This document shows positions 8,820-26,479 of a stretch of 28,603 bases of DNA, one piece after another. The DNA lies in the IMG/VR virus record IMGVR_UViG_3300023500_000019, positions 1 to 28,603 of that record; one strand, written 5' to 3'. The DNA comes from a virus. Within the stretch, counting starts at the first letter, position 1, and each line of letters begins with the position of its first letter. Below the pieces are notes generated by a model that did no database searches, was not told where the DNA came from, and saw nothing but the letters and a program-made list of their open reading frames with translations. The position numbers and the translations under genes are program-made.

Positions 8820-9727
8820 CAGGCTCTCCGCAATATGCCTGCTGGTCGAATAAGCTGCGTTAAGAGCAGCTCAGCGCGCTGGAACAGGCGTTCACCAGGG
8901 ACATTACCGCCTGCTCCAAATGCAAGATCCTGTTCAACAGGGCCCGCTTTAACCTTGTTGCGCACAATTGGAGCTGCATCGTCAACAGTTGGTGCCAATT
9001 CGCCACCTGCCGTTGGATCAAGACTAGCAAGGGCTAGCTCAACGCAAGCTTTCTTCAGATTCACTGGGATTGTACTAGCAAAAAGTAGGAAGCCAGAATC
9101 GTCAACAGCATCAACGCGCGGCCACTCTAGCGCTTGCTCGAGCCACGATCGCGTGCCTCTAAATCGTGGTCCAAAGCGGCCATCAAGGTACTGAGTCGCG
9201 CGACGCAAAGCTTGCTCTTTTTGCTTGATTGAAATGCGCGCCGTCCCGCCTTCGAGAGTGGGCGTGTCCCAAAAGTTGTTGTCGCTTACTGTAGCTGCAG
9301 CAAGCGCGATAGCATTGCCGGCGATGCCCTCTTTCCTGGCAAAGAAAAGTGTGGCCGCGGCAACTCCACTTGGCTGGTCAGCTCGCACGGTCGGATGCGC
9401 TGTCATGAGCAGGGCATAGTCTACGCCAGGAGCGCCCGCCAGGCTCAGAGCATTGACCAGGTTGAGCACGGAGGCAAGCGGTGATGCTCCGATCAGAATG
9501 TTGCCGTCGACGTTCGTGAGCGCAGCCTGGAAGGTGTAGACTTTTGCGTCAATCGTGAGCTGGTCACCATCTGAGAAATTATCGGCGACAAGGAGCACAC
9601 TTTCTGCGTGCTGCGCACTCCAGCCGTTCTGATTGCCAAGACCTTCGGCGTAAGCATCTGCAAACGCTAGATCGGCATAGGCTTCAGCATTCGCGTCGCC
9701 GTTTCCGGTCTCGACAATCAAGCTCAT
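8819..9727 (-). CDS. DnaT-like head-tail connector with inserted domain
   Basis: This 302-aa protein starts at ATG 9727, one base after the previous stop. Residues 1-38 (M-S-L-I-V-E-T-G-x-G then A-x-A-Y-A-D) and 166-300 (E-Q-A-L-R-R-A-T-Q-Y-L-D, Q-A-L-E-W-P-R, I-P-x-x-L-K-K-A-x-x-E-L-A) match the phage family labelled putative DnaT-like ssDNA-binding protein, whose members are head-completion adaptors of HK97 gp6 type. Between them, residues about 43-163 form an extra domain (G-D-Q-L-T-I-D, Y-T-F, N-L-V-N-A-L, G-I-A-G-N-A-I-A-L). A related domain occurs in the 415-aa fibre-like protein. The usual family length is about 170-200 aa, so the size difference equals the insert. Confidence 0.8.
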   Translation of the reverse strand: MSLIVETGNGDANAEAYADLAFADAYAEGLGNQNGWSAQHAESVLLVADNFSDGDQLTIDAKVYTFQAALTNVDGNILIGASPLASVLNLVNALSLAGAPGVDYALLMTAHPTVRADQPSGVAAATLFFARKEGIAGNAIALAAATVSDNNFWDTPTLEGGTARISIKQKEQALRRATQYLDGRFGPRFRGTRSWLEQALEWPRVDAVDDSGFLLFASTIPVNLKKACVELALASLDPTAGGELAPTVDDAAPIVRNKVKAGPVEQDLAFGAGGNVPGERLFQRAELLLTQLIRPAGILRRA

Positions 9728-12381: not shown

Positions 12382-13494
12382 TTAGTTTGGTTTGTTAGCC
12401 GTTTTGTCCAGTCCGCGCAATTGCTTTAGCGTTAACGGCCGATTCCTGGGATCAGTGAACCGAGTAATGTCTACACGGCCCGCTCTAAACAGCCTGGCTT
12501 TGCCTTTGCCAAGTACTTTGTCTTGAATACTCGTAGGCTGACGTTTTAGCCATTGTCCGTAAGTTTCGTCGCCAGGAACGGTTCCGCGTAATGCGGTTTT
12601 GAGGTCCTTATAATTCTTCGCAGCCCGTGTAGGTGGCGGCGGATTGTCAAGATCGATTCCCATTTCACGAAAGCTTTTGAGGACTGGTACGATTGTCGAG
12701 CGACACTGGATATGCGCTGGTGGTCTGATCCCTTCGCCCAACGGAAATACTTTCCCGTCGAGTGACGCGCATATGGTGGAAGTACGGGCATCGAGCGTAG
12801 AAACCCAACGCTCACCTTTGATAACGTCTTCATTCGCTTTCGCTGTTTCTGCTCGTGCTTGAGCACTTATATGCGTTACTGAGGTGCGTACTACAGCTTC
12901 TGTCTGGCGTCTTGACTTTTGCCATACACCATCGCGAAAACCGCCAGCCTTCGTTCCGCGAACTCGTCGAACTATGTCGTCGACCCCTTCGCCGGTCGAC
13001 ACACCAATTCGCACTTGGCCCATGACACCGTCTTGAGTGCTTTTCTTCAGCCCACCCCACCACTGGTTCCACGAACGGCCTAAAGGCGGTCCACCGGGTC
13101 CTTTGCTACCTAGAGCTGCAGAGATGAGTCCTGCCGGAGGCGTCGCAAGGTCTACGTTGATAGGCATGAGCGCTCTGGTCTGCCCTACAAGCCAGGAAGC
13201 TTCGTCCATGCCTAGCTGCACTATTCGCTTCCGCGATTCGGCTTGAACTTGACCAAACCCAGCTTTGACCGTATCGCTAATACCGGTTGCGAGCTCTGTC
13301 AGTCGGCGCTGTCGTGCTCTTGGATTCCTGGGAAGGCGAGGAACCGTTCGCTCGATCTTCGACAAGATACTGGGCAGCACTTCACGGTCAAGGAATCCGA
13401 CAACCTGCTGAACTTCGCCGACTTTCAAGCGTTCTAGCTGCGTAGCTCTAAAGATGACAGAATCAAGCAGGGCGCTATTGACATCCTTAGGCAT
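12382..13494 (-). CDS. MuF-like minor head protein
   Basis: This 370-aa protein starts at ATG 13494 in a TAATG overlap with the portal gene. The second half has the phage Mu gpF / SPP1 gp7 head-morphogenesis domain: R-T-S-V-T-H-I-S-A-Q-A-R near residue 213, W-V-S-T-L-D-A-R-T-S-T-I-C-A-S-L-D-G-K-V-F near 237-257, and P-P-A-H-I-Q-C-R-S-T near 265-274. Family members are carried in small number in the head next to the portal and may enter the host with DNA. The first half is helical with no motif I know. Length is normal for the family, with no toxin domain attached. Confidence 0.9.
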   Translation of the reverse strand: MPKDVNSALLDSVIFRATQLERLKVGEVQQVVGFLDREVLPSILSKIERTVPRLPRNPRARQRRLTELATGISDTVKAGFGQVQAESRKRIVQLGMDEASWLVGQTRALMPINVDLATPPAGLISAALGSKGPGGPPLGRSWNQWWGGLKKSTQDGVMGQVRIGVSTGEGVDDIVRRVRGTKAGGFRDGVWQKSRRQTEAVVRTSVTHISAQARAETAKANEDVIKGERWVSTLDARTSTICASLDGKVFPLGEGIRPPAHIQCRSTIVPVLKSFREMGIDLDNPPPPTRAAKNYKDLKTALRGTVPGDETYGQWLKRQPTSIQDKVLGKGKARLFRAGRVDITRFTDPRNRPLTLKQLRGLDKTANKPN

Positions 13495-14981
13495 TAGAGC
13501 GGCTGCCCTTGCGCATCAAGGCCCATGCTTGCGGCGTCAGGAATACTGCTCAATGGGTCGGTCATGCCGAACTCTTCTGCGATCTGAGCCGCTTCTACGT
13601 CCGGGTCCACTGAGTCGGCGAGCTGGCCACGTCGCTTGATTTCCTGGAGGAAGGTCAACGTGCTCAGACGACCTTTGGTGGTTGCATCAAGCAAGAATGC
13701 GAGATCTGAGTTGCCGAAGCTAACTGTGAAGTCGCTGAAGACATCGACACCAAAATCCGCAGGCAGTTCAGTCTGGTGCCACTGTGCTGCGAAGCGATAT
13801 GCTTCCTCTAATCCTGTTTCTAGTGAGCGCACCCAATCTTGAGCACGAGTGCTACTCGACGCTTCATCGATCGCTTTGCCAGTTGCAGTCGCACCTGCAG
13901 ACTTGTCGACGAATGGCTCAATGCCTAGCACCTCCATTCGGCTCTCAAGGTCAAGCAGATCTTTGCGTCCTGCTTCTACTGCCTTGCCGCCATGCTCGAC
14001 ATATTTCAGGTCAGCATCTTTCGATGATGCCGACGTTGAGACCATGTTGAAGGGCCCAATTTCAAAGCCTTGCTCGGCTTCGCGCTTGGTCAGGCCGGAT
14101 GCAAAGAGTACAGCAAAGCGAGCAACACGCAAGATGTTGCGCTGGTCAGAATCTGATTGCCAGTGCGCCAAGTTCAACCAGGCCAGGCCGTCAAACGGCG
14201 GATCGGCTTCTAGTACCCCGATCTTCTTCGCATAGATGGTCACTAAAGGTATATGACCAAGAGTTAATGGACCTTCATCAGCTAGATCCCACTGCTCGCT
14301 GCCTTGTACGTCAGACTTACGCCATAACTCAAAGCGGTCGCGCTCGATCACACGAACATAGTCGACCTGGTGCGACGCGAAGCGCGAGCCGTCAACTTGC
14401 TCGGTTCGTGTTTCACGAATACGGATTTGTGACAACTCTGGGTCTCCAGCACCACCTGTGTTCGATTCCCGCGAATCCGTGAGCCATCCAATTAGTGCAG
14501 GAGGTGAAACTCGGACGAAAGTAGCTCTCGCTCCAACAGCTTGCTCTTGTGCAATTGACGCGATGCCGCCTCCGACGTTTTCTGGCACGGCAGTGAAGTC
14601 GATCAGGATGTGCGCCTTGCCGTATGTCAGCGCGTCTTCAAAGATCGATCTTGCGAACTTGCTTAGCGGCTGACCACAATCGTCAGTGTCGACTTCGAGA
14701 AAGTCGAGCAAGGTTGGCGCGTTCTTCGCGGTGACTGGCCTGGTGAATGGTCGTGCAACAGCGCGATCAATGGCGTTCGCTAGCCCTTCAAACAACACGC
14801 TGCGCGAAAGACGCCGATTGTAGTTTGTGTCAGTTTCTGCTTGTTCTTTCGGTAGCCAGACCTGGGCCTGGTCACGCATACGCTGCGTGCCGCCAAGCAG
14901 GTCGTGGATAAGAGCCCATTTACGCGCCATTCGACGCCAGGCGGCATTGGGCTTAGCGACTGGATGCTCTTCGTGTGCCAC
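13494..14981 (-). CDS. Portal protein, DUF4055 family
   Basis: This 495-aa protein starts at GTG 14981 with GAGG 8 bases upstream. It carries the DUF4055 pattern: W-A-L-I-H-D-L-L-G-G-T-Q-R-M-R, then W-L-P-K-E-Q-A-E then Y-N-R-R-L-S-R-S, then G-K-A-H-I-L-I-D-F near residue 115. A central H-W-Q-S-D-S-D-Q-R-N-I-L segment and a G-A-T-A-T-G-K-A-I-D-E-A-S-S-S segment before the helical C-terminus also fit. The portal forms the dodecameric ring at one vertex, the docking site for terminase and the channel for DNA. In most tailed phages it directly follows terL; here about 10 kb separates them. Confidence 0.9.
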   Translation of the reverse strand: MAHEEHPVAKPNAAWRRMARKWALIHDLLGGTQRMRDQAQVWLPKEQAETDTNYNRRLSRSVLFEGLANAIDRAVARPFTRPVTAKNAPTLLDFLEVDTDDCGQPLSKFARSIFEDALTYGKAHILIDFTAVPENVGGGIASIAQEQAVGARATFVRVSPPALIGWLTDSRESNTGGAGDPELSQIRIRETRTEQVDGSRFASHQVDYVRVIERDRFELWRKSDVQGSEQWDLADEGPLTLGHIPLVTIYAKKIGVLEADPPFDGLAWLNLAHWQSDSDQRNILRVARFAVLFASGLTKREAEQGFEIGPFNMVSTSASSKDADLKYVEHGGKAVEAGRKDLLDLESRMEVLGIEPFVDKSAGATATGKAIDEASSSTRAQDWVRSLETGLEEAYRFAAQWHQTELPADFGVDVFSDFTVSFGNSDLAFLLDATTKGRLSTLTFLQEIKRRGQLADSVDPDVEAAQIAEEFGMTDPLSSIPDAASMGLDAQGQPL

Positions 14982-14983
14982 GC

Positions 14984-15373
14984 TTACTTCCTCGCTTCCT
15001 TCAGAATTCGGCGCAGCAATTTAGAGCTCCGTAGGGCCGTGCGGCGTGATACGTCTGGAAGAACCGCATCAGCTTGAACCCATGCGTCATGCCGATCCAG
15101 GACTGGCTCCAGGACTGGCTCCAGGACTGAGGCTTTCACGAAGCTGCCTAGCTTCTTGACCAAAGACCTGCACTTCGCCGACTGGCCGAACCAGGCAGCA
15201 GAATCGACTGGTGAGATACCAGCCGCACTGGTTAGGTAGTGGTCATGACGCAGCGTAACAGGCGCGATAAGCACGCGAACACTGTCACTACGAATTTTGC
15301 CTTTTGATAGCCAGCTGCACCCTTGAAGCCCAGTGCACAGCAACACAATCAGCAATAACTTACGCATGCTCAT
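14984..15373 (-). CDS. Phage-encoded lipoprotein
   Basis: The ATG at 15373 has GGGAGG 6 bases upstream, giving 129 aa; the same frame extends upstream without a ribosome site. A signal peptide (M-R-K then a hydrophobic stretch) ends in a lipobox L-Q-G-C with Cys19, so the product should be lipid-anchored. The mature part starts S-W-L-S-K-G-K and contains a repeated V-L-E-P motif (residues about 86-96) and a basic C-terminus. Possible roles are superinfection exclusion, an o-spanin-like lysis function or an envelope factor during assembly; it is far longer than typical Rz1. It lies between a helical protein and the portal. Confidence 0.75.
   Translation of the reverse strand: MSMRKLLLIVLLCTGLQGCSWLSKGKIRSDSVRVLIAPVTLRHDHYLTSAAGISPVDSAAWFGQSAKCRSLVKKLGSFVKASVLEPVLEPVLDRHDAWVQADAVLPDVSRRTALRSSKLLRRILKEARK
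15097..15129 (-). repeat. 12-bp tandem repeat in lipoprotein gene
   Basis: CCAGGACTGGCT (plus strand) occurs in about 2.7 tandem copies and encodes repeated V-L-E-P. Confidence 0.8.
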
Positions 15374-15773: not shown

Positions 15774-16349
15774 CTAACGGGATTCAACAGCCGCGCCTCG
15801 TGCAATGCCATGCACAATTGTTGAAGACGTATTAACGGCGCGCATCCTCAGGATTAGGCGCTCCTGCACACCAAGTGTTAGAGGCATAGACAAAGCAGGG
15901 CGCTCAGGCAACGATGGAATGGTTGAGTCAAATGGAAATGCGTTCTCGTCAATGGCTGTAAGGAGCTCGTTTACTATTCCGACCCACAGTCCTGCGACCC
16001 TGTCAAGGGCGACTGTTTTGTTTACCGTGTCTAGGAGCAGAAAGTTTCTGATTGGTCCGTCTGCAGCGCTTGTTGTACGCACGGTTTTGGCTCCTGCACT
16101 TGACCCAAAACCACTGGTCCATTTTGCTTGGTGAACAGGAGTTAGCGAGCCGTCTTCAGTTTCAATAACGAGCTGTGCGTAATACTCGGGTGTAGAGCTA
16201 GCGAAGTTAGAGCTCATAGCAAGAACAAGGTTGTCCCAGTGGTCGAGCTTTCCGACTCCGACAGCTGGCGCATACAGCTCAAGAACTTCTTGATAGGTAC
16301 TCGTCAGAAGTGTGACCTTATCGCGCTTAAAGATCCGAATTTCTGACAC
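15774..16349 (-). CDS. Hypothetical virion-type protein, paralog of 16575-17177 product
   Basis: This 191-aa protein starts at GTG 16349 with CGGAGG 5 bases upstream, one base after the previous stop. It shares with the 200-aa product two genes earlier an N-terminal T-Y-Q-E/D-x-x-E-L motif and a C-terminal strand pattern (P-L-T-L-G-V-Q-E-R-L-I-L-R-M-R-A-V versus P-L-I-L-G-P-G-E-A-V-R-I-Q-A-K-I). The core appears beta-rich. No enzyme motif is visible. The surroundings of fibre and collagen-like genes suggest a structural or decoration protein, but the function is unknown. Confidence 0.65.
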   Translation of the reverse strand: MSEIRIFKRDKVTLLTSTYQEVLELYAPAVGVGKLDHWDNLVLAMSSNFASSTPEYYAQLVIETEDGSLTPVHQAKWTSGFGSSAGAKTVRTTSAADGPIRNFLLLDTVNKTVALDRVAGLWVGIVNELLTAIDENAFPFDSTIPSLPERPALSMPLTLGVQERLILRMRAVNTSSTIVHGIARGAAVESR

Positions 16350-16350
16350 G

Positions 16351-16575
16351 TCAACCTCCGAGTGGACTCGCGAGTGGATTGCCTACAGCTGAAGAACGCC
16401 CGAGCTGCCCAAACAAGCCGGACGCTTGCGGCGTCGTTATAAGCTCGTCAGTGAGAATGCCGCTAGAGCCGCCGCCGACTACGCTGCCTGCACCATTAGC
16501 AACAAGTGGTGTGCCGTTAGCAAGTGTGCCGGCGTTCAGCATCCTGATTTGAACCGGAGGGCCTTCGTTTGCCAT
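16351..16575 (-). CDS. Small glycine-rich hypothetical protein
   Basis: This 74-aa protein starts at ATG 16575 in a TGATG overlap, with GAGGAGG 7 bases upstream. It is rich in Gly, Ala, Ser and Asn (G-A-G-S-V-V-G-G-G-S-S-G) and probably unfolded or a linker-like structural part. It lies between the two paralogous proteins, coupled to both by overlaps or a one-base gap. No family recognised. Confidence 0.6.
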   Translation of the reverse strand: MANEGPPVQIRMLNAGTLANGTPLVANGAGSVVGGGSSGILTDELITTPQASGLFGQLGRSSAVGNPLASPLGG

Positions 16576-17177
16576 CAGGCAGCCTCCTCAACCGCATTCG
16601 CCATGAACCTCCAGCGAACATTCGTAGCACCGAGCTGTCCTGTGATCTTCGCCTGAATGCGAACAGCCTCTCCTGGCCCGAGAATCAAGGGCTGAACGAT
16701 TGGAGCGTGCAACTCGATAGGCCCAGTTGATGCGTATTTCTTTGTTGGAACGGCTTCTTCGCGCTGCGCGAAAGTGCTTGTCCACCAAGCTGAAGCCTGG
16801 CGTAGGCGTAAACCATTAAGCACATTGAAGCGCAGAAGATCGTTACCAGGATTTTGGCCAAATAAATCGCCTGGATCAGCTGCAAAAAGATCATTCAGGG
16901 CGCTTAAAGAGCTGCCGCCATTCGCTGGGAACTCATAGTTGAGAATCTCGAGAACTTGGTCTGTTGTGCCGTCATTAAGCAAGATACGAAACTCAATACC
17001 CGCCACCGCAGTACCAAATCGAGCTGTGTTGATGTGCAAGTATGCTGAGAAGATGTCGGCCTGCTCTAAGCTTGTGCGCTTACCGGTAGCGCTCGAGAGC
17101 AGCTCGAACAAGTCCTGATAAGTGTTGTTCAGAACCAGAGAGCCGTCTAGCACGCGAACTGGCTTAAGAGTCGACAT
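16575..17177 (-). CDS. Hypothetical virion-type protein, paralog of 15774-16349 product
   Basis: This 200-aa protein starts at ATG 17177 with AGAGGAG 5 bases upstream. It carries the N-terminal motif N-T-Y-Q-D-L-F-E-L and a C-terminal segment G-P-G-E-A-V-R-I-Q-A-K-I followed by V-R-W-R-F-M-A-N-A-V. The same features appear in weaker form in the 191-aa product downstream. Predicted mainly beta. Position in the fibre-like block suggests a virion component. No exact family recognised. Confidence 0.65.
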   Translation of the reverse strand: MSTLKPVRVLDGSLVLNNTYQDLFELLSSATGKRTSLEQADIFSAYLHINTARFGTAVAGIEFRILLNDGTTDQVLEILNYEFPANGGSSLSALNDLFAADPGDLFGQNPGNDLLRFNVLNGLRLRQASAWWTSTFAQREEAVPTKKYASTGPIELHAPIVQPLILGPGEAVRIQAKITGQLGATNVRWRFMANAVEEAA

Positions 17178-17206
17178 CTGAGCTCCTCTGTGCGCTTAGT
17201 TTGATA

Positions 17207-17237
17207 CCTCGCCACGACCTAGCTAGCTGCGGCGAGG
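17207..17237 (-). other. Inverted repeat between fibre-like gene and next gene
   Basis: CCTCGCC (17207-17213) and GGCGAGG (17231-17237) form a 7-bp stem with a 17-base loop that itself holds AGCTAGCT. The following minus-strand bases lack a T-tract. It could be an RNA-stabilising or attenuating hairpin in the 88-base gap. Confidence 0.4.
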
Positions 17238-17265
17238 GTGCTATTATTGCCCGTCAGCTCCTGGA

Positions 17266-18522
17266 TCAGAAGGTGTAGTCGACGGTCATTTTGTCGGTGG
17301 CCTTGATGATCGAGAAACCACTGGTCGCGCCGAGCCAAGTGATGATGGTACCGGCTCGCGTGAAGTGCGCGCCCTCGAGCATGCGGATCTGATTGAGGTA
17401 GAGCTTGAACGACCCAGCAACCGGCGTGTTGTTGATCGTGTCCGTGAGCGCCAAGTCGGTAACGACGTCGCCAGCTTCCAAAGCCAAGTTGATGACTTCG
17501 CCACTGACCGGCGTTCCACCTGCGGCAGCGATCGCAGTGCTGAATGCTTCGAGCACGCCCTGCACAGTGTCCGTCGTTCCAGCGTTAGCGCCGATCGCAG
17601 TCGCATCCGTTCCAATCTTCGCAGCGCCGGAGGTGGTATTCGGATTGGTCGCAGTTCCAATTGCCAGGAGTTCGATCTCTGTAAAATAGCGAGCATCATG
17701 CGTGTGCAGCGCCGTGTCCAAACCACCGGTCAAAGCACCGAGATTTGCAGCCGTCACATTCGCAGAAACGCCACCGTTGACCTGGTTGACTTCAGCTGCA
17801 GTCGCGGTCACGTCCGTGATTTGGGCAAGAGGATGCGTGTGGCTCGCAGCGATGTCCGAGATGTCGCCAAACGTTGCGCCAAGCAGCATCGCTTTGAGCG
17901 GAAGGCTGTCAGCATCGAACACTTCCGCGAACAAGATGTCGATCGAGGCAGCTGGAATCGCGATCGCAACACCGACAGCTGTGTAGTAGGTGAGCGTCCA
18001 GACCGCAGTGGCAAACGACAGAACGCCATAGACTTCGCCGCCAGCGCCATCGTTGAGTGGCTGTTTGGTCACCGAGTCGCGAATCTGCACTTTGTAGTTC
18101 TGGACGGCTGTTCCAAGCGTATCGGCAAGCGCTGCGCCAGTCGACATGATCCCTTTAACGGCGCCATCCTGCGTCGGAGTTGTGACGGTCGCAGCCGCTT
18201 GAATGTCCGTGGTTACGTCGTCATTCAGGCCACCCGCAGCTGCAACAACGCGCTGCACCCAGCCCGCCAAAAGCTTCGACTGCAAGGTAGACTGCTTCGC
18301 CGGGGTGCTCATGTGAACGGCAAGAACAGCACCGTTCGCAACTTGAGCGGAACCGACAGCTTGAGCGGCGACTTTCGCCGCGAAAGTCGCTTGATCGAAG
18401 AAACCGGCCGCCATTTTGCCGCGACCTGCTGCGGATGCTGCGAGCAAACCATCCAAGAGTTCGGCCGTGTCGACCGCCCCATCTTGGAGGTATCTGTTGT
18501 CCATAAATCCAGTTGCACTCAT
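17266..18522 (-). CDS. Tail fibre-like protein
   Basis: This 418-aa protein starts at ATG 18522 with AAGGAGG 8 bases upstream. The N-terminus (N-R-Y-L-Q-D-G-A-V-D-T-A-E-L-L-D) has the repeated G-A-V/A-A-K-V pattern common in fibre shafts. Two His-rich fibre motifs lie at H-T-H-P-L-A-Q-I-T-D-V (about 228) and H-T-H-D-A-R-Y-F-T-E (about 263). The C-terminal 70 residues form a beta domain ending D-K-M-T-V-D-Y, related to the end of the collagen-like protein encoded next to it. Codon use is as C/G-biased as the capsid gene, implying an abundant product. It may be a fibre or a head decoration protein; placement far from the tail genes keeps both open. Confidence 0.7.
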   Translation of the reverse strand: MSATGFMDNRYLQDGAVDTAELLDGLLAASAAGRGKMAAGFFDQATFAAKVAAQAVGSAQVANGAVLAVHMSTPAKQSTLQSKLLAGWVQRVVAAAGGLNDDVTTDIQAAATVTTPTQDGAVKGIMSTGAALADTLGTAVQNYKVQIRDSVTKQPLNDGAGGEVYGVLSFATAVWTLTYYTAVGVAIAIPAASIDILFAEVFDADSLPLKAMLLGATFGDISDIAASHTHPLAQITDVTATAAEVNQVNGGVSANVTAANLGALTGGLDTALHTHDARYFTEIELLAIGTATNPNTTSGAAKIGTDATAIGANAGTTDTVQGVLEAFSTAIAAAGGTPVSGEVINLALEAGDVVTDLALTDTINNTPVAGSFKLYLNQIRMLEGAHFTRAGTIITWLGATSGFSIIKATDKMTVDYTF

Positions 18523-18535
18523 GCGTCAAGCCTCC

Positions 18536-19042
18536 TTAGGCCTTTTGGTAGTAGATGGTCATGACGTCGGAAGCCTTGACCGGGAACGATGGGATTGTGA
18601 TTGTTTGAAGTGTTGGACCAGACGCTGCGAAATCTACGATTGGATGAAGAACAAGACGGTTACTTACGATCCAAATCGCTTCGGCACTGATCGGCTGGAA
18701 GTTGAGCGTAAATACAGTCTGGCCGTTAACCGGTGTTTGCGGCTCATTCGTCAGTGCAGTTCCGGCTCCGATTCCTGGAGGACCAGCTGGTCCAACAGGT
18801 CCAATAAGCGAGACTGGAGGAAGCGGCCAAACACCTGCTACTCGTGGACCGTACAGCTCGCTTGTGTTAGTCCTGAGATAGAAGTCGCCATCTACACCGA
18901 GAGCGTTAGGCGGCACGACTGTTCCGTTAAGGACTGTGCGACCAGCTGCACCTGGGTTTCCCTGGACTCCTGCGGGACCTTGTGCTCCTTGCGGCCCTTG
19001 TTGTGCTACCTCGACAACAGGTTGGCCGTTGCATAGAGCCAT
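18536..19042 (-). CDS. Collagen-like fibre protein
   Basis: This 168-aa protein starts at ATG 19042 with GAGGTG 4 bases upstream. Six Gly-X-Y triplets (residues 16-33) follow a short N-terminal head, and a second short run lies at 81-94 (G-P-V-G-P-A-G-P-P-G). Between them is G-V-D-G-D-F-Y-L-R-T-N-T-S-E-L-Y-G-P, a module often found in collagen-like phage proteins. The C-terminal beta domain ends S-D-V-M-T-I-Y-Y, resembling the end of the downstream fibre-like protein. Collagen triplets would trimerise the product. Its N-terminus (C-x-x-x-x-V-V-E-V then G-P-Q-G) parallels the 99-aa collagen-like protein at 22670-22969. Confidence 0.78.
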   Translation of the reverse strand: MALCNGQPVVEVAQQGPQGAQGPAGVQGNPGAAGRTVLNGTVVPPNALGVDGDFYLRTNTSELYGPRVAGVWPLPPVSLIGPVGPAGPPGIGAGTALTNEPQTPVNGQTVFTLNFQPISAEAIWIVSNRLVLHPIVDFAASGPTLQTITIPSFPVKASDVMTIYYQKA

Positions 19043-19045
19043 GGG

Positions 19046-19402
19046 TCACCTCGTGACTTCGGGTTTAATGCGTGCCCGACCTTGAACAAGGCGAGTAACG
19101 GTGCCAGTTGGACTGACGAGCTCAAGGTCATAAACGCCAGCTACGCGCGGCAGCAAAGCCGTTTGCGCGGCAGTGAGTGTGACGGCTATCTCGCCTAAAC
19201 CACCAACTTGAAGCTGCACTCCTCCTTTGGCAGCGGAGTCCACATCTACTAGCGGCGTTGTGCTGTCGAATGAGTTGCGCACTTGCATACGCGCTAGGTA
19301 GCCCGTGAGATCAACCAAGGCGCCGTCTCCATCACGCCACCGAAACAGCTTCTGGAAAGTAGCGCCTTGATCGATCGCAATGTTGTGAAGCGCGAGAGCC
19401 AA
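19046..19402 (-). CDS. BppU-like baseplate/fibre protein, copy 2
   Basis: I place the start at TTG 19402, giving 118 aa. The open frame extends further but inside the previous gene, and the TTG start lines up with the 120-aa paralog at 23223-23585. Shared positions include Q-G-A-T, F-R-W, G-Y-x-A-R-x-Q-V-R-x-S, T/S-A-x-Q-T-x-L-L, A-G-V-x-D-L-E-L and a final V-T-R-L-x-Q-G-R-A-R then P-E-V-T. The pattern resembles the N-terminal domain of phage baseplate upper proteins (BppU family), a beta-sandwich that attaches fibres. The ribosome site is weak. It is followed, as in the other copy, by a collagen-like gene. Confidence 0.75.
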   Translation of the reverse strand: MALALHNIAIDQGATFQKLFRWRDGDGALVDLTGYLARMQVRNSFDSTTPLVDVDSAAKGGVQLQVGGLGEIAVTLTAAQTALLPRVAGVYDLELVSPTGTVTRLVQGRARIKPEVTR

Positions 19403-19406
19403 TGGA

Positions 19407-20654
19407 TCAGACCAACTTGCCCATCTGGACAGAGTAGACTTCCAGAAATGCGCCGTCGAGAGCGCCGACATTCCAATACTTCTTGCCGTTCGTTCCGACA
19501 GAGATAGCAACATCGCCAGGGACAGAAATCACGCCCGTAAAATCAGCTTTCGCAGGGCGTGGACCTGTTTGCGTGACCTGCGGCTTCCAGTAACTGGTCT
19601 TCGCAATCGTCAGGCTTCCGTCTTTGACTTGAACACCGTTAACAGGATTGGTTTCAAGGGTGACGCCATCAACTTTCACGGCCACGTCGTTTGGCCCGAT
19701 AATCAAGGAGTTGTCAGCCGCAACAAGGTCAATCACACCTGCGTTGTTCGCCAGACCTGCGCCTGCTGTGTTCGCGGAGATACCGGAGCTGAACCAAACA
19801 TCGGAGTCGCCAGCCCACGTTTTCTCGGAGCGCCCATCAACAATCTTGTGCGTTTCCTGGGAGGCGAGTAGCGCGAACAAGCGTCCGAAACCGACCTGAC
19901 CGACACCGCCGTCTGCACCAAGCAGGTTGCCTTGAACGCCGTCATTGGACGCGTACTCCTTTGCGCCGTTGAAGTCGATCACTTGCACGTCGGCTTGCGA
20001 GTTAGCGATTGTTCCAAACACTCTCGTGTTCGCAGCACCAGCTGACTCCTGGGCAAGCACATAAAGCACTAGCTGGTCTACCTGACCACCGCTGAACCAG
20101 CCATCGAATGCCGTAGACGCTTGCCCGTTGTATTTGAGGCTGTCAGCGGTGATTGCGGCAGCCAGGTTAGCAATGGTCGCAGCGGAGCCAGACACGGCAA
20201 CTACGAATTGATTCGCAGCGGGAACGCCCGGAGCAATCGCAGTGAAGACCTCAGTCGTCACACCGTCAGCAATGGAGATGGTGTCGCCTGGCTGAAGGTT
20301 CTGGACGAGTGTCAGCAGCAGCGCTTGGCGCACACCTCCAACACCGTTGCCGTCGCGAAGCTGTGTCTCGACTAGGACAAGCTCCTTCCAGGTTTTGCCG
20401 CCAGCAAACTGAGCGTCAACGTAAGCACGAGAAGCTGCGTGCTTCCCTGCTGTCGGGTTTAACGGCACTTCCACTTGGCCGCCTGCATCGCGCTGCGCGA
20501 GCTGATTCACAAGCGCGGCAACGTTGAACTCGATTTCAGCAAGCAAGCCGGCACCATTCGTTCCGAAAACGGTGCTCGCTGTGCCGGGCAAGTGGTTGTC
20601 GTGCCCGTGCTCTTTCTCGTGTGAGCCAAGGACTTCAGGTGTGATGGCAGCCAT
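19407..20654 (-). CDS. Tail fibre-like protein with GDT-type beta domain
   Basis: This 415-aa protein starts at ATG 20654 with AGGAGG 6 bases upstream. Residues about 66-82 (N-P-T-A-G-K-H-A-A-S-R-A-Y-V-D) match a segment found in many phage fibre proteins. Residues about 118-215 hold a domain opening P-G-D-T-I-S-I-A-D-G-V with I-A-N-L-A-A-A-I, similar to the domain inserted in the DnaT-like connector. A His-rich N-terminus (H-E-K-E-H-G-H-D-N-H) could bind metal. The C-terminus includes W-x-V-G-A-L-D-G-A-F. Codons are moderately biased, suggesting good expression. Role as fibre or decoration protein is inferred. Confidence 0.7.
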   Translation of the reverse strand: MAAITPEVLGSHEKEHGHDNHLPGTASTVFGTNGAGLLAEIEFNVAALVNQLAQRDAGGQVEVPLNPTAGKHAASRAYVDAQFAGGKTWKELVLVETQLRDGNGVGGVRQALLLTLVQNLQPGDTISIADGVTTEVFTAIAPGVPAANQFVVAVSGSAATIANLAAAITADSLKYNGQASTAFDGWFSGGQVDQLVLYVLAQESAGAANTRVFGTIANSQADVQVIDFNGAKEYASNDGVQGNLLGADGGVGQVGFGRLFALLASQETHKIVDGRSEKTWAGDSDVWFSSGISANTAGAGLANNAGVIDLVAADNSLIIGPNDVAVKVDGVTLETNPVNGVQVKDGSLTIAKTSYWKPQVTQTGPRPAKADFTGVISVPGDVAISVGTNGKKYWNVGALDGAFLEVYSVQMGKLV

Positions 20655-20766
20655 TTGGCGCCTCCTGGAGAGAGGGTTGACTGGTCTGCGAGAGGCGTCC
20701 CGGCTCGATCCCGCTGGTGAAATAATGGACTGTTGAGCGGCTTGCTAGCTTAGCCCAAACGCTTCG

Positions 20767-21438
20767 CTAGTAAAGGATGTCGAATCGCGGCCTAACTCGA
20801 ACAACTGAAGCACTCTTGTTGTCATAGCTTATGCGAATCGCGGTGCCAGCTGGAAGTGGTGAAGCACCGAATTTTGAGTTGCCAACCGCCTGCTCTATAG
20901 CCCCGTTGTCTAGCTCGATCCAGTTTGCTTCGGTAAACGGGTTGAGCGTCATGACAACTGTCGCCAGGAAAAGGGTCGCAGTCGGCCAGCTACGCGTTGT
21001 CGCTTTGGTAACAGTAATCGTGCTCGCGTTTAGGTCTATGCTTGAGATTAACCCAAGCCCATCGCGATTAGTACCATCGTCAAAAGCAAGACACATTCCC
21101 TTGAAGATCTTGCCGACAGCGGCAAGCATCTGCATAGCCACAGACATTGGCAGCACGGTAACACCTGCTGCTACCGGGCTCTCGAGTCCACCAATAGGTG
21201 AGTCAGGGCCTACTTCTAGTTTTACGCGGTCACCTGCGCTTACCAGCGTTGTTTGCATACTCGTCTGCAACGTGCTAATCAGAATTGGCGAAGTGAAAGT
21301 TACAGCAGTAATTACGCCTGGCGCAGCATCAAACGGCAAGGTGAAGGCCGAAAAGTGCCCGCCTGTCTCTTCACCTGGCTCTTCTTCACGCAAAGTTACG
21401 ACAGCGGGTGCACCTCTGTTTGGATTTACGCTAGCCAT
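20767..21438 (-). CDS. Hypothetical virion-type protein
   Basis: This 223-aa protein starts at ATG 21438, 6 bases after the previous stop, with only a weak ribosome site. It has an acidic N-terminus (R-E-E-E-P-G-E-E-T) and then appears beta-rich, including I-S-S-I-D-L-N-A-S-T-I-T-V-T-K-A and a C-terminal A-G-T-A-I-R-I-S-Y-D. A G-D-R-V-K-L-E-V-G-P-D-S segment near residue 69 and the E-A-N-W-I-E-L-D-N-G segment near 175 suggest binding or structural strands, not catalysis. Context suggests a virion accessory protein. No family recognised. Confidence 0.62.
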   Translation of the reverse strand: MASVNPNRGAPAVVTLREEEPGEETGGHFSAFTLPFDAAPGVITAVTFTSPILISTLQTSMQTTLVSAGDRVKLEVGPDSPIGGLESPVAAGVTVLPMSVAMQMLAAVGKIFKGMCLAFDDGTNRDGLGLISSIDLNASTITVTKATTRSWPTATLFLATVVMTLNPFTEANWIELDNGAIEQAVGNSKFGASPLPAGTAIRISYDNKSASVVRVRPRFDILY

Positions 21439-21444
21439 ATGCGC

Positions 21445-21930
21445 TTAGTCCTTGACTTCGTAGTCTTGCACATCGCTCATGACGATTTCAGCGGCGTCGC
21501 TTGTTTCGATGGCGAAAGTGATTGTGTGCTTACCATCGGCGAGGTTGAGCGCCTTCAAATCAACTTCGACAAACTTCGCAGTCATGATGGTGTCGCCAGT
21601 GTGGAGCACTGAGCCGTCAGGAGTACCGCTAACGAAGTCGCCATTGACATCGAAGCTCGCGCTCTTGTCAATCCAGACGGTGAACTTTGCGGTCGCCAAT
21701 GCGTTGCTGATTTGCAGAGTGGGATATACCTGCAGCTTTTTGAAGTCGCGATCGTGGGCTGCATCCTTGACGTAATCGAACTCAATGATTCGTTTCGGTG
21801 TGACTGCACCCGTCTGGATGAAATTGTTGTTGACACCCTCAAGCGAGCGGCCAAGCACGCCAGGTGCCATGCTGGATGCAGGAATTGACGCAGCTGGTGG
21901 AATGCCCGATTTCGGATTGTAAGCAGCCAT
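21445..21930 (-). CDS. Hypothetical virion-type protein
   Basis: This 161-aa protein starts at ATG 21930 with AGGGGA 5 bases upstream. The N-terminus (about 1-50) is Pro/Ser/Gly-rich and contains the fibre-like turn I-Q-T-G-A-V-T-P-K-R-I. The remainder is a beta-sandwich-like domain with L-A-D-G-K-H-T-I-T-F-A-I-E-T-S near residue 130. Codons are C/G-biased like the capsid gene. No exact family recognised; a decoration or fibre-associated role fits its neighbours. Confidence 0.62.
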   Translation of the reverse strand: MAAYNPKSGIPPAASIPASSMAPGVLGRSLEGVNNNFIQTGAVTPKRIIEFDYVKDAAHDRDFKKLQVYPTLQISNALATAKFTVWIDKSASFDVNGDFVSGTPDGSVLHTGDTIMTAKFVEVDLKALNLADGKHTITFAIETSDAAEIVMSDVQDYEVKD

Positions 21931-21939
21931 GATTGTCCC

Positions 21940-22248
21940 CTACTTGTGCAGCATGATGAGCTCGCCATACGTGAATGAAGTTGGCGCTGCACGCGCTATT
22001 AGCGTGAGCGTTCTAACTCCAGTCGCATCGGCAAAGATGTCGATGTCCAACTCACTTCCAGTTAACACTGCTCTGTCTACCGTGTCACCATCCAAACGTA
22101 TCCCGATACTGCCGGCCAAACCAACAGTGACCAAGCGTAGATCTAGGTCACCAACGAGCTTAGTGAAGCGGACTGTGACCAGCACATCGCCGATGGCAGG
22201 TACGGCAAGAGGCACGTCCCAAGTGTTAATGAGTCGGCTGCGGTTCAT
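21940..22248 (-). CDS. Hypothetical beta-rich protein
   Basis: This 102-aa protein starts at ATG 22248 in an ATGA overlap with the preceding gene. It is composed largely of alternating hydrophobic strands (V-L-V-T-V-R-F-T-K-L, D-L-D-L-R-L-V-T-V) and resembles a small beta-sandwich of the kind found in virion accessory proteins. No motif identifies a family. Confidence 0.6.
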   Translation of the reverse strand: MNRSRLINTWDVPLAVPAIGDVLVTVRFTKLVGDLDLRLVTVGLAGSIGIRLDGDTVDRAVLTGSELDIDIFADATGVRTLTLIARAAPTSFTYGELIMLHK

Positions 22249-22670
22249 ATCCCTTGCGCTCCCCAGTTCACGCCGTCGCTCCTAAACACCCTAAACTCGT
22301 CACGGCCTAACTGATAGCTAGCTAGACGGCTAATAGTCTGACCAGCCATGCCGATAATCACGACTTTATTCGCACCTCTGCTCTCGCCAAGATAGTCCCA
22401 AACTAGCACTCGCTTTCCTGGCGAGAGAGGCGCACTCGGAAGCTGAAAGGTAAGCCCGCCTGCTCCAGCGGAGTTCACTCGGTTGAGTGTGTCTACGGCG
22501 AGTACGCCTGCTGCTGTGAGCGGTGCAGGGACTGACGGAACGGGTTCGCCACCTATCGATGCCGGAAGATTCGCCACAGGGACTTTGGAGCTTGCGTCCA
22601 GCGGGGCGATACCGTTTGGCTCGCCATAAAGCGGTCCCCAGTCCTCATGCGAGCCTGGCGATGTAGCCAT
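22245..22670 (-). CDS. Fibre-associated protein with G-I-A-P-L-D-A motif
   Basis: This 141-aa protein starts at ATG 22670 in a TAATG overlap, with GGAGG 8 bases upstream. Residues 20-37 (G-I-A-P-L-D-A-S-S-K-V-P-V-A-N-L-P) match a linker common in phage tail fibre proteins. The C-terminal part is a beta domain (F-Q-L-P-S-A-P-L-S-P-G-K-R-V-L-V-W-D) ending S-D-G-V-N-W, typical of fibre-tip or lectin-like folds. It follows the short collagen-like gene and may be its partner or knob. Confidence 0.7.
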   Translation of the reverse strand: MATSPGSHEDWGPLYGEPNGIAPLDASSKVPVANLPASIGGEPVPSVPAPLTAAGVLAVDTLNRVNSAGAGGLTFQLPSAPLSPGKRVLVWDYLGESRGANKVVIIGMAGQTISRLASYQLGRDEFRVFRSDGVNWGAQGI

Positions 22671-22969
22671 TAGGTGAGCCTCCGAGCTTCTACGACGTAG
22701 ACCCGGCCAGCTCTACCAACAGCGAAGCGCACACTCTCAGGAACGACGGACGAGTCCACCCAAACGACGACTACCCCGTCAGGCACCTGAATCGGTGTTG
22801 GGGGTGCTGGTTGGACCAGAAAAGCGAAGGTGCCAGCTGGACCTTGCGGACCTTGCGGACCTTGCGGACCGGGTAGACCTTGCGGACCGGGTAGACCTTG
22901 CGGGCCTTGCGGACCGCTGTCAATAACTTCAACGACACGTGTGACTGTGTCTGACGATACGCAGCCCAT
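22670..22969 (-). CDS. Short collagen-like protein
   Basis: This 99-aa protein starts at ATG 22969 in a TGATG overlap with the zinc-motif gene. Nine consecutive Gly-X-Y triplets span residues 19-45, mainly Gly-Pro-Gln and Gly-Leu-Pro. A short N-terminal head has C3 and V-V-E-V, and a beta C-terminal part follows (G-V-V-V-V-W-V-D-S-S-V-V). It should form a trimeric triple helix. The head and first triplet match the start of the 168-aa collagen-like protein. There is no good ribosome site, so it probably relies on coupled translation. Confidence 0.75.
   Translation of the reverse strand: MGCVSSDTVTRVVEVIDSGPQGPQGLPGPQGLPGPQGPQGPQGPAGTFAFLVQPAPPTPIQVPDGVVVVWVDSSVVPESVRFAVGRAGRVYVVEARRLT
22835..22915 (-). 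repeat. Collagen-type coding repeat
   Basis: Nine-base (GGTCCGCAA) and eighteen-base units repeat nearly perfectly and encode Gly-Pro-Gln and Gly-Leu-Pro triplets. Near-identity at the DNA level suggests recent expansion. Confidence 0.85.
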
Positions 22970-23226
22970 CAGGAGGTAAGCTCGAGTCGCCGTTTATTCG
23001 CCAGCGTCCAGGTTGCGAAGTTTTCCTCTACGATCTTTCCGGATGCTGCATTCGTGATAGCCCACGAACCAGTGGATCTAAGCAACAACACGCGAAAGGT
23101 GCCTTGTGGCTGTGCCCAGCTGCAGCCCTTAGCCGTATGAGCTGTCTTGTGGCCGACCGGGAGCTCACAGACCAGACGCGGCAGCAGTCCTGGATGCGTC
23201 GCCTCGCATGCTGAGTCGTAGCTCAT
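22969..23226 (-). CDS. Small Cys/His-motif protein
   Basis: I start at ATG 23226, in an ATGA overlap and with AGAGGTG 5 bases upstream; an upstream ATG in frame lies inside the preceding gene and lacks support. The 85-aa product has C7, then C20-E-L-P-V-G-H-K-T-A-H (H26, H30), then C35. A C...C-x-x-P-x-G-H-x-x-x-H arrangement occurs in small phage and actinobacterial proteins and suggests bound zinc. It sits between the BppU-like and collagen-like genes of copy 1 and has no equivalent in copy 2. Function unknown. Confidence 0.65.
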   Translation of the reverse strand: MSYDSACEATHPGLLPRLVCELPVGHKTAHTAKGCSWAQPQGTFRVLLLRSTGSWAITNAASGKIVEENFATWTLANKRRLELTS

Positions 23227-23585
23227 TTGGTCACCTCTGGAGAGACACGAGCCCGGCCCTGAAGAAGCCGAGTAACAACACCTGCGAGTTCTAGCTCTAA
23301 ATCCCACACTCCAGCCCAAGGTGCTTCGAGTAGTGTGGTCTGCGTGGCGGACAACTCAGCGTCAATTCTGCCAAGCTGTCCGCTCGCTTCAAGCACAAGG
23401 CCTTGACCACCGCTCGCTAGGCTAATCACAGGGTCAGGCGAGTTGTACGACTTACGAACTTGTAGCCTGGCCACGTAGCCCGCAAGATTGATAGGTACGT
23501 TCAAACTGTCAAGCCAACGAAAGCTTTGGAGCCACGTCGCTCCCTGGCTGATGCGCAAGTTGTAGGTGCCAGGGAGCGTGGCCAC
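23223..23585 (-). CDS. BppU-like baseplate/fibre protein, copy 1
   Basis: This 120-aa protein starts at GTG 23585 directly after the previous stop, with AAGG 9 bases upstream. It is clearly related to the 118-aa product at 19046-19402, as shown by Q-G-A-T, F-R-W, G-Y-V-A-R-L-Q-V-R-K-S, S-A-T-Q-T-T-L-L and the closing V-T-R-L-L-Q-G-R-A-R. The pattern resembles the N-terminal domain of phage BppU-type proteins that anchor fibres. Both copies end P-E-V-T-R/K with the stop embedded in GGTGACC, which also serves the next gene as ribosome site. Probably a paralog for a second fibre. Confidence 0.75.
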   Translation of the reverse strand: MATLPGTYNLRISQGATWLQSFRWLDSLNVPINLAGYVARLQVRKSYNSPDPVISLASGGQGLVLEASGQLGRIDAELSATQTTLLEAPWAGVWDLELELAGVVTRLLQGRARVSPEVTK

Positions 23586-23819
23586 TTATTTCGCCTTCGG
23601 AGCCTTACGGCCTTCCGATGTGACATCGTCGTCGCGAGCCGACACGCCACCAAAGCCGATGCCAAGTGCAGCAGCGATAAACAGCACGCCCTGGAGCATC
23701 TTCGCCATGTTGGCCGTGGTGCTCGGGTCAGCATCGAACATCGCAGCCAAGCCCGCCAAAATCAAGGCAAGAGCGGCAGCGATTCCCGCAAACGTAGTTT
23801 TCGTCGATTTCTTGTTCAT
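23586..23819 (-). CDS. Two-helix membrane protein, holin-like
   Basis: I use ATG 23819 (77 aa), which lies 9 bases after AGGAGG; the ATG at 23825 is only 3 bases away from it. Two hydrophobic helices span about residues 10-27 and 43-58, with a D-A-D-P-S-T loop between them and a charged C-terminus (S-A-R-D-D-D-V-T-S-E). This layout matches small membrane proteins common in phage lysis and late regions, sometimes annotated as holins. Holin function cannot be shown, and no endolysin gene lies in the window. Confidence 0.68.
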   Translation of the reverse strand: MNKKSTKTTFAGIAAALALILAGLAAMFDADPSTTANMAKMLQGVLFIAAALGIGFGGVSARDDDVTSEGRKAPKAK

Positions 23820-23824
23820 GCTCA

Positions 23825-24205
23825 TCAGCCTCCTGGTACAGTCGTCAAGCGCTTGGCGTCAGGCACTTCCGGCGCCTCGTCATCTTGTAAATGAAAGACA
23901 TTGTGCGGCGCTCGCCGGATCAACACCCCCACTACGTCGTCGGGCCGAACCATCAAGACAGCAGGAACGATAAGCGGTGTCGCAAGGAATCCCTCAATCT
24001 CGACAGGACCAAGAGGTGCCGCAGCGAGGATAGCATCGTCAGCGTACTCCTTGCTCGTTCGGCACAGCAAGTCATGGCTGTAGGCTAGGGCTTTCCACTT
24101 GCCCTGCACCAGGATGATGAGCGACTCCATCGATTGACTCAAAGCTACTTCGATTTCCCACCAGCTGTTCAGCTTCACGCCTGGGGCAATGTCGTCTGGT
24201 TCCAT
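23825..24205 (-). CDS. Hypothetical protein
   Basis: This 126-aa protein starts at ATG 24205 with a weak GAGA site. It has an acidic start (M-E-P-D-D), W-W-E-I-E-V-A-L and several hydrophobic strands (P-L-I-V-P-A-V-L-M-V), and ends acidic. No motif or family recognised. It is coupled by an overlap to the holin-like gene. Confidence 0.55.
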   Translation of the reverse strand: MEPDDIAPGVKLNSWWEIEVALSQSMESLIILVQGKWKALAYSHDLLCRTSKEYADDAILAAAPLGPVEIEGFLATPLIVPAVLMVRPDDVVGVLIRRAPHNVFHLQDDEAPEVPDAKRLTTVPGG

Positions 24206-25090: not shown

Positions 25091-26479
25091 CTACCGTCGC
25101 ACAGTCGTGACAGGACCACCCAGCGGGTGAGCTTCGCAGATATAGTAGCCGATACCGTCAGAGATGTGAGTTAGCGGGTCTCCGGCTGTCTTGATGATGC
25201 TACCCTGAGAGTCCGCCTGGACGCCCTCAAAGTCACGGATGACATGTGGAGCAGCCTTGGCATCAACAACCAGGCCGATGCGGCCGTCGGCTGCCTCAAG
25301 TCGCGAATTTACACTGTTCAATCGCACTCGTATCCTGGGAGCGGATGTAGCGACACGGTCGATGAGTCGTCGCCCAAAAGCAGGGCGCAGATGCGCGTCA
25401 ATCAAGTCCCAGTCAGAGCCCTCGATCGCAGAGCTGCCTTTCGCGCCGCCAGCAGGGTCACCATAGAGCACGACATCGCCGCGGTGCAGGTCTGCCCAGT
25501 CTGCAAGAATCCGCTCGCAAACTAGCTTTGTGTTTGAGCGACGCCGGATGAACACCTCGCCAATGACCGAAGTAATGCAGCCTTGGCGACTGATGTTAGG
25601 GTTCTTCAGCCATCCGATTCGATTCGCGGGGATCTCTTGGATATAAGCGCAGACACCTGGTTCGCGGTTGAAGTCAAACGCCAGGATAAGCGGAAGGTCT
25701 GGTTGATAAACGACACGATCGCCATTGGCGGCAACATTAGCTGGTGAAAACGCATGATAAGCAAGCCCCTCGAAGCTGATGAAACGAGCACGATATTCCT
25801 GATCGTAGGTAAGTGTGTCCAGCGACTCTTTCGCTTCTGCAATTTCTGCAGCTGCGCGCTTTTCGCCAAGCCACAAGTGCAACACGTCTTCAGTCGTCCA
25901 ATGATGGTGCACTCCGCCTGGAAGTTTACCGTCAAGCACCCGAGTCGCAAGATCGTAGTAGTGGTTGCGACCTTCCGGTACGCCCTCGATGTCAATCCAA
26001 CCACCACGCGTCATCATTGGGCGGATCACTTCGCTGAACACGTTGGCCTTGCAGTTCCCGAATTCCGAGATTACACCGCCGTCCCAATCTTTGCCCTCAA
26101 TTCGTTCCGGCTTGTCTAAGCCTGCGACCTTAATCTTCGCCCCGTTCACCAGGCTGATCGTGAGTTCGCTGTCGCTAATACCGCGCCGCCTGCCACCTTG
26201 GATCGCCCAATCGGGGACCATTGCCTTCAAGTCAGTCCAAAAGATGTCCTTGGACTGGCGATGCGTTGGAGCTGTGGCATAGAAGCGTCCATCGGAGAAT
26301 TCGGTAAATCCGATGGCGGCACGGATGAGCCGACGTTTAGCGCCTTCGGTCTTGAATGAGCGACGACCAGCGATAACTAGGTTGACACGGGCAGTAGACC
26401 GAACATAGCCAAGCTGAGGCGGTGAGAGTCGCGCAGGGTGCCAGCGAGGCGGAAGAGCAAAAGCGTCTTCGTCACTCAC
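25091..26479 (-). CDS. terL: Terminase large subunit
   Basis: This 462-aa protein starts at GTG 26479, overlapping the previous stop by four bases (GTGA). It has the two-part terminase layout. The ATPase has a Walker A-like G38-R-R-S-F-K43-T44, a Walker B-like G-V-I-S138-E139 and a coupling motif near 165-171 (E-G-V-P-E-G-R). The nuclease has acidic positions D269 (L-A-F-D-F), D341 (L-Y-G-D-P) and D441 (I-S-D-G). It cuts concatemeric phage DNA and pumps it through the portal. Length and motif spacing are normal for the Terminase_6/TerL group. The aspartate usually before the Walker B glutamate is a serine. Packaging type (cos, pac) cannot be told from this sequence alone. Confidence 0.93.
   Translation of the reverse strand: MSDEDAFALPPRWHPARLSPPQLGYVRSTARVNLVIAGRRSFKTEGAKRRLIRAAIGFTEFSDGRFYATAPTHRQSKDIFWTDLKAMVPDWAIQGGRRRGISDSELTISLVNGAKIKVAGLDKPERIEGKDWDGGVISEFGNCKANVFSEVIRPMMTRGGWIDIEGVPEGRNHYYDLATRVLDGKLPGGVHHHWTTEDVLHLWLGEKRAAAEIAEAKESLDTLTYDQEYRARFISFEGLAYHAFSPANVAANGDRVVYQPDLPLILAFDFNREPGVCAYIQEIPANRIGWLKNPNISRQGCITSVIGEVFIRRRSNTKLVCERILADWADLHRGDVVLYGDPAGGAKGSSAIEGSDWDLIDAHLRPAFGRRLIDRVATSAPRIRVRLNSVNSRLEAADGRIGLVVDAKAAPHVIRDFEGVQADSQGSIIKTAGDPLTHISDGIGYYICEAHPLGGPVTTVRR

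Follow-up and report, generated by a model that had tools for sequence, protein, structure and literature searches.

The stretch of DNA analysed here, called the window throughout, is a 28.6-kb virus record of IMG/VR (IMGVR_UViG_3300023500_000019; 28,603 nucleotides) whose genes are read on the minus strand. In that direction they run from a terminase small subunit (TerS)-like gene and the terminase large subunit gene (TerL) through a long block of fibre-like genes to the portal (DUF4055), a MuF-type head protein, scaffold, capsid, connectors, tail tube, tape measure and a DUF2460 gene. The block, at 15774-23585 (~7.8 kb), is a near-gapless minus-strand run of ~13 fibre-like and orphan genes, two of them collagen-like, and gene starts and stops overlap or almost touch in the stretches that were read directly. 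Two of its proteins, LtfC1 and LtfC2, belong to the LtfC family of fibre adaptors and have the LtfC fold; these key genes had gone unrecognised in an earlier note on this DNA. We consider it reasonably probable that this block encodes accessory fibres for receptor binding, organised as a module of two LtfC-anchored cassettes, and that it shares a cargo slot between TerL and the portal with probable lysis genes. The genes of this slot and its two edges are as follows, in minus-strand order.

25091-26479, minus: TerL, upstream edge of the slot (PHROG 2, E 2.8e-31)
23586-23825, minus: 79-aa membrane protein, possible holin, directly preceding LtfC1 (weak PHROG holin match, E 0.014; hydrophobic stretches)
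23223-23585, minus: LtfC1, LtfC/p132-like beta-sandwich fibre adaptor (PHROG 1084, E 1.1e-20; PHROG 3304, E 1.7e-5)
22969-23226, minus: 85-aa protein, no assigned function; start overlaps the LtfC1 stop
22670-22969, minus: 99-aa collagen-like protein (Pfam Collagen, E 3.8e-5, under the curated cut-off; tail-fibre PHROGs)
22245-22670, minus: 141-aa fibre-type protein with a GIAPLDASSKVPVANLP motif (PHROG 1446, minor tail protein, E 5e-4)
21940-22248, minus: 102-aa orphan of beta-rich composition; no family matches
21445-21930, minus: 161-aa orphan of beta-rich composition; no meaningful family match
20767-21438, minus: 223-aa orphan of beta-rich composition; sole match sub-threshold (LtfC Pfam, E 0.057)
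19407-20654, minus: 415-aa orphan (g415) with a fibre-type motif, KHAASRAYVDAQ, seen by eye
19046-19402, minus: LtfC2, LtfC/p132-like beta-sandwich fibre adaptor (PHROG 1084, E 6.7e-25; PHROG 3304, E 4.6e-11)
18536-19042, minus: 168-aa collagen-like protein, N-terminus QPVVEVAQQGPQGAQG (Pfam Collagen, E 5.6e-4, under the cut-off)
17266-18522, minus: 418-aa fibre protein (g418) (PHROG 2012, minor tail protein, E 0.0016; codons like those of the major capsid protein, MCP)
16575-17177, minus: 200-aa orphan, possible tip or decoration; no family matches
16351-16575, minus: 74-aa orphan; no family matches
15774-16349, minus: 191-aa orphan, possible tip or decoration; no family matches
14984-15373, minus: small lipoprotein, possibly outer spanin, following the block (signal and lipobox LQGC in the sequence)
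13494-14981, minus: portal (DUF4055), downstream edge of the slot (PHROG 145, E 9e-93; Pfam DUF4055, E 4e-31)

The LtfC-like adaptors and their partner genes

LtfC1 and LtfC2 align to PHROG 1084 over ~110 of its 123 positions; that family is labelled "unknown function", and PHROG 3304, which both also match, stands for L-shaped tail fibre assembly. The two proteins share 48% identity and are thus paralogues, and a window-wide comparison of pairs gave no other clearly paralogous pair. The start of LtfC2 is probably the TTG at 19402, which by eye directly follows the stop of g415. A profile built from seven relatives matches the structural protein 26dk_M of Pseudomonas phage KPP25 (E 4.9e-15; assigned by identity to the sequence in phages KPP25 and phiR18), as well as DT57C LtfC (8hqz_Q, E 0.006) and T5 p132 (7qg9_R, E 0.0085). 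An AlphaFold2 model of LtfC2 made with 45 sequences reached a pLDDT of 85.9, and its top fold match in the PDB is again DT57C LtfC (8hqz_Q, E 1.2e-8, TM 0.67/0.62), followed by a Douge baseplate protein; the model also matches the 80alpha baseplate and, more weakly, many immunoglobulin (Ig) domains. At the tail tip of DT57C, LtfC assembles into a dodecameric ring, and its sheets are completed by strands from the N-terminus of the fibre protein LtfA (PMC10713586). The KPP25 LtfC-like protein (26dk_M) and the KPP25 portal (26fb_F) have solved structures in separate PDB entries. A scan of bacterial genomes with LtfC1 gave no relatives, so the host could not be inferred.

The gene next to LtfC is of a recurrent kind. 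In Acidovorax phage AP1, DC31, ACP17, phiHAP-1, KPP25, L012 and L014 (the last two being environmental contigs), the gene after LtfC has, by eye, a strand-rich N-terminus followed by Gly-X-Y. Both collagen-like proteins of the window, with the N-termini TRVVEVIDSGPQGPQG and QPVVEVAQQGPQGAQG, look the same, with V-x-V type strands and then a GxxGPxG-type stretch. Across 44 distinct genes following LtfC, many of them from one lineage, V, I and T together account for 39% of the N-terminal 60 residues, compared with 18% in 1588 background open reading frames (ORFs); at least three consecutive Gly-X-Y triplets within 150 residues occur in 15 of the 44 and in 145 of the 1588. This comparison is rough because the background ORFs include non-genes. 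MW202615 is an exception, with an LtfC that lacks such a partner, and a search of the PDB for the neighbour of the KPP25 LtfC did not find it. In the window, each LtfC-like gene has nearby a fibre gene with a potential strand-donor N-terminus, although one 85-aa gene intervenes after LtfC1.

We read the block as dividing at the two LtfC genes into two cassettes. The first comprises LtfC1, the 85-aa, 99-aa collagen-like and 141-aa proteins and then the orphans of 102, 161, 223 and 415 aa; the second comprises LtfC2, the 168-aa collagen-like and 418-aa fibre-type proteins and then the orphans of 200, 74 and 191 aa. The 168-aa protein is related to the fibre that follows LtfC in L014 (E 2e-15), and its only match among PDB sequences is irrelevant (E 0.094). 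The 99-aa protein, with its N-terminus TRVVEVIDSGPQGPQG, carries 10 Gly-X-Y triplets, and this stretch is encoded by a 9-bp tandem repeat of 8.6 copies at 22839-22915, so slippage could vary fibre length; no length difference was seen between the two assemblies. A motif similar to GIAPLDASSKVPVANLP of the 141-aa protein occurs, by eye, in the second gene after LtfC in AP1. The protein g418 carries HTH motifs common in tail fibres, and its sole relative found outside, at 31% identity over 311 aa, is a protein of 1027 aa encoded close to a baseplate wedge gene of the contig L193.

The ORF listed as 22969-23319 probably begins, judged by eye, at the ATG at 23226, giving the 85-aa protein; family searches with the longer 116-aa ORF in that frame gave no matches. 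For g415, the IMG/VR scan found this phage only, and searches of PHROGs, PDB sequences and phage genomes found no relatives. Phage-genome searches with g418 and the 191-aa protein were likewise without matches, as were PDB sequence searches (up to E 1) with the 418-, 415-, 200- and 191-aa proteins, and a single-sequence AlphaFold2 model of the 191-aa protein was set aside (pLDDT 34). The head-tail adaptor of the window (PHROG 477; 8819-9727) is longer near its N-terminus than four relatives of 169-174 aa, by ~115-130 residues, and this insert bears only a marginal resemblance (E 0.088) to part of the 415-aa protein.

The TerL-portal slot and the recurrence of the gene pair

The earlier note had put about 10 kb between TerL and the portal and nearly 8 kb into a fibre and collagen-like run, and both figures hold: TerL and the portal lie 10.1 kb apart, and the run has the length given above. 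Two contigs of the same sample each match the window with one difference (at positions 510 and 28477), and one of them, the second assembly G001, is identical to it from TerL through the block and into the portal, of which it includes the first 303 residues. Because G001 repeats the junction, the order TerL-block-portal is not a chimera of a single assembly. The collagen-type GGxCCx repeats number 10, compared with 0.23 expected by chance. The expectation that the portal follows TerL at once, from which the note had started, does not fit the DUF4055 family. Among 43 other DUF4055-portal contigs with both genes (best matches, hence a non-random sample, with a few near-duplicates), the gap spans 0 to 6.2 kb (median 2.2 kb), and only one contig has none. 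The interval is therefore a regular cargo slot, and the window, with the largest gap, is its largest example in the sample.

What fills this slot elsewhere bears on whether the block is a module at all. It might be ordinary lysis or accessory cargo, the slot gathering unrelated late genes so that few block proteins would enter the virion. The varied contents of the slot in the DUF4055 family fit this, as they include, partly by eye, lipoproteins, likely glycosyltransferases and nucleotide-metabolism genes (phiH1, Donnerlittchen). Within the window itself, the slot holds probable lysis genes, the candidate holin and spanin listed above, recognised by weak matches or by eye; proteins with a start similar to that of the lipoprotein occur, by eye, in many other TerL-portal gaps. 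The block, however, is one tight run in which two sets of LtfC and collagen-like genes are ordered as in other phages, and we regard mere cargo as an improbable account of it.

Several other slots deserve mention. In L106 (4089-10001), a DUF4055-portal contig, small genes fill the 5.9 kb between TerL and the portal; among them are a collagen-like gene and one whose product matches the "head protein" PHROG 240. L011 (3766-6067), a close relative in TerL and portal, has slot proteins of 630 and 134 aa without family or LtfC matches, possibly a different fibre adaptor. Glycosyltransferase-like starts, the products of which could modify fibres, were seen in L140 (5427-7648, in the TerL-portal gap) and L036 (13901-15747, after the capsid gene).

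Pairs of LtfC and a fibre gene recur in several phage lineages. In L012, L118, L134, L138 and L149 the order is TerL, LtfC, a ~980-aa fibre and the DUF4055 portal; L115 and L133 show LtfC, the ~980-aa fibre and the portal, with TerL missing at the contig edge. The ~980-aa fibres of this clade carry Tail Collar and CBM_5_12 (carbohydrate-binding) domains in the three scanned. This related clade therefore has an LtfC and a fibre between TerL and a DUF4055 portal, with a single LtfC and in 4.4 kb. In an unrelated lineage, a scan with the L014 LtfC found 445 contigs, of which 80 were examined. An HK97-type portal lies directly upstream of LtfC in 77 of the 80; a collagen-like gene comes next after LtfC in 54 of these 77, and a protease is the gene after that in 60. 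PHROGs confirmed the labels portal, LtfC, protease, capsid and tail tube in one contig, L036. The 80 contigs count as one or a few independent events, because they are mostly of one lineage. The LtfC-like proteins of AP1, phiHAP-1, S-CAM1 and HTVC008M, a set that includes a cyanophage and a Pelagibacter phage, sit among tail, fibre or baseplate genes.

Proposed function and location of the fibres

Because each of the two sets is led by a relative of the protein that fastens the side fibres of T5, the block most likely encodes add-on host-binding fibres in an unusual place and not a capsid coat. By analogy with T5 and DT57C, the LtfC-like proteins would each assemble into a ring on the tail, with LtfC sheets completed by the V-x-V strands at the start of the collagen-like partner. 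Trimerisation of the partner would fall to the Gly-X-Y stretch, the 99-aa and 168-aa proteins thus being the proposed strand donors and trimerisers, and the downstream proteins may lengthen the fibre and bear the binding tips. We infer ring assembly, strand donation, trimerisation, receptor binding and a place on the tail rather than the neck from these parallels. As to location, tail side fibres appear most likely, the neck comes second and the head last; the only recognisable attachment fold in the block is that of relatives of the tail-tip adaptor T5 p132/DT57C LtfC.

The phage has a tail adhesin of its own as well. After DUF2460 lies a glycine-rich protein of 673 aa (window 1-1546, minus strand, cut by the window edge; complete in L019 at 12557-14578) with a Gp38-type adhesin domain (PF05268, E 5e-11) and a match to PHROG 2056 (host specificity). 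A second contig of the same sample extends the tail and encodes this Gp38-like adhesin-domain protein, a protein with a baseplate-hub N-terminal domain and BR0599, an Rcc01698-like tail protein and a DUF2793 protein. Since a gene transfer agent (GTA)-like tail tip with its own adhesin is encoded elsewhere, the TerL-portal block would be an additional fibre set. Position 510, the sole base that differs from the second assembly in that half of the window, falls in the adhesin gene.

Several points weigh against an accessory tail-fibre module. With the GTA-like tip and its Gp38-like adhesin already encoded, the phage would not need a second adhesion set there; the shaft and tip roles are guesses, because most block proteins are orphans; and none of the other loci compared has an equivalent of the 85-aa protein that separates LtfC1 from its collagen-like partner. 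LtfC moreover adjoins the portal in two unrelated lineages, which could mean a location at the neck. The proteins would then form neck whiskers or collar fibres, with LtfC-like rings at the head-tail junction and collagen-like fibres radiating from there, and the portal-side position of the genes in both lineages, with the portal directly before LtfC throughout most of the L014-type contigs, would be explained. Precedents exist: in Sf14 the genes of the two whisker proteins immediately follow the portal gene and precede those of the capsid (PMC11821841), and cyanophage A-1(L) has fibres attached at the neck (PMC10966104). FelixO1 has the order portal, ORF54, ORF55, protease, where ORF54 is a homologue of the Bas63 connector collar protein 9mt4_G and of Sf14 gp127, and the LtfC2 model matches 9mt4_G (E 7e-5). 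This fold match is no better than that to unrelated Ig domains, however, those of PD-1 scoring equally, and comparisons of FelixO1 ORF54 and ORF55 with the LtfC-like proteins by hmmsearch and hhalign gave nothing significant. Tail-tip LtfC/p132 gives the top fold match and also the only matches at sequence level to proteins whose location is known, and several LtfC relatives lie within tail or baseplate gene clusters. The whisker genes of the Ounavirinae occupy the portal-protease interval; the block of the window, between TerL and the portal, lies outside it, and the L014-type LtfC lies inside it. A neck position is an unlikely but live alternative. It would be a bolder proposal, and one we hold unlikely, that LtfC-type rings moved from the tail tip to the portal or neck in at least two unrelated lineages, giving rise to portal-proximal collagen-like fibres, so that this phage would have two rings, two fibre sets and a separate tail-tip adhesin. 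If neck fibres were true, they would be a new attachment site for an LtfC-type adaptor.

The earlier note had instead favoured head fibres or capsid decoration over tail fibres, that is, adhesin-displaying proteins attached to the lattice of the capsid. Capsid fibres occur in other phages, the block is positioned within the head gene cluster, and a distant relative, L106, has its PHROG 240 match in the same slot. The strongly MCP-like codons of g418 are also consistent with a high copy number. The accompanying claim that several block genes use capsid-like codons is largely wrong, as only g418 (z 6.2) and, mildly, g415 (z 2.7) stand out and the majority of the block's genes score neutral or negative. 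The bias is shared by the tail-tube, scaffold and tail-chaperone genes, and we rejected MCP-like codons as evidence of a capsid location on these grounds. No block protein tested matched decoration or head-fibre families in Pfam, PHROGs or PDB sequences. The adaptors are LtfC-like, the partner domains in relatives are of tail-fibre types, a tail-collar fibre occupies the related slot, and the relative of g418 lies near a baseplate gene. A place on the head is thus the least probable of the readings weighed, and very improbable in itself.

Reading the block as accessory LtfC-anchored fibres ties PHROG 1084, a large unannotated class of environmental phage genes of "unknown function", to fibre attachment, and would mean that many uncultured phages encode receptor-binding fibres among their head genes, where annotation would not look. 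The suggestion of an undescribed adhesion system stands as to an adhesion or fibre module in an unusual place, but not as to an undescribed kind, LtfC-anchored fibres being known. The double cassette with its collagen-like partners seems to be new, as does the repeated portal-side placement in unrelated phages. A double cassette in the TerL-portal slot was not found described in the searchable literature, a search that left subscription journals mostly outside.

Apart from the block, two adjoining ORFs at 5487-6232 of the window match positions 7-139 and 146-249 of PHROG 8233 (tail-assembly chaperone); since they cover successive parts of the family, this suggests a split or frameshifted chaperone gene.

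Comparison with known systems

Among known adaptors, the N-terminal domain of BppU from lactococcal-type baseplates is comparable as a beta-sandwich that carries receptor-binding trimers, a likeness of fold. The predicted-fold matches include a phiM12 protein annotated as carrying the BppU domain, and no sequence family match to it was found in the block. The whiskers of the Ounavirinae (Sf14 gp30/gp31, FelixO1 ORF54/ORF55) resemble the block in their portal-side, fibre-like genes and perhaps in part by fold, but are without sequence similarity to the LtfC-like proteins.

Closer in gene order are AP1, Limnohabitans phage DC31, Halomonas phage phiHAP-1 and Pseudomonas phage KPP25, in which an LtfC-like gene is directly followed by one for a strand-rich/Gly-X-Y protein. 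In AP1, phiHAP-1 and KPP25, unlike the window, the pair lies near tail or fibre genes and one LtfC copy is seen in each; in DC31 the neighbours of the pair are unannotated. The clade of L012, L118, L134, L138 and L149 shares with the window an LtfC-like gene and a fibre between TerL and the DUF4055 portal, but has one LtfC and one CBM_5_12/Tail Collar fibre of ~980 aa in 4.4 kb, compared with 10.1 kb.

The best understood parallel is the LtfC (p132) of T5 and DT57C with its L-shaped fibre (Ltf/LtfA), which shares with the window a small beta-sandwich adaptor, by profile and by fold, and a fibre with a strand-forming N-terminus. T5-like phages have one LtfC, and the strands of LtfA are followed by an alpha-helical coiled coil (PMC10713586), whereas the phage of the window has two LtfC-like proteins, collagen-like partners and portal-adjacent genes.

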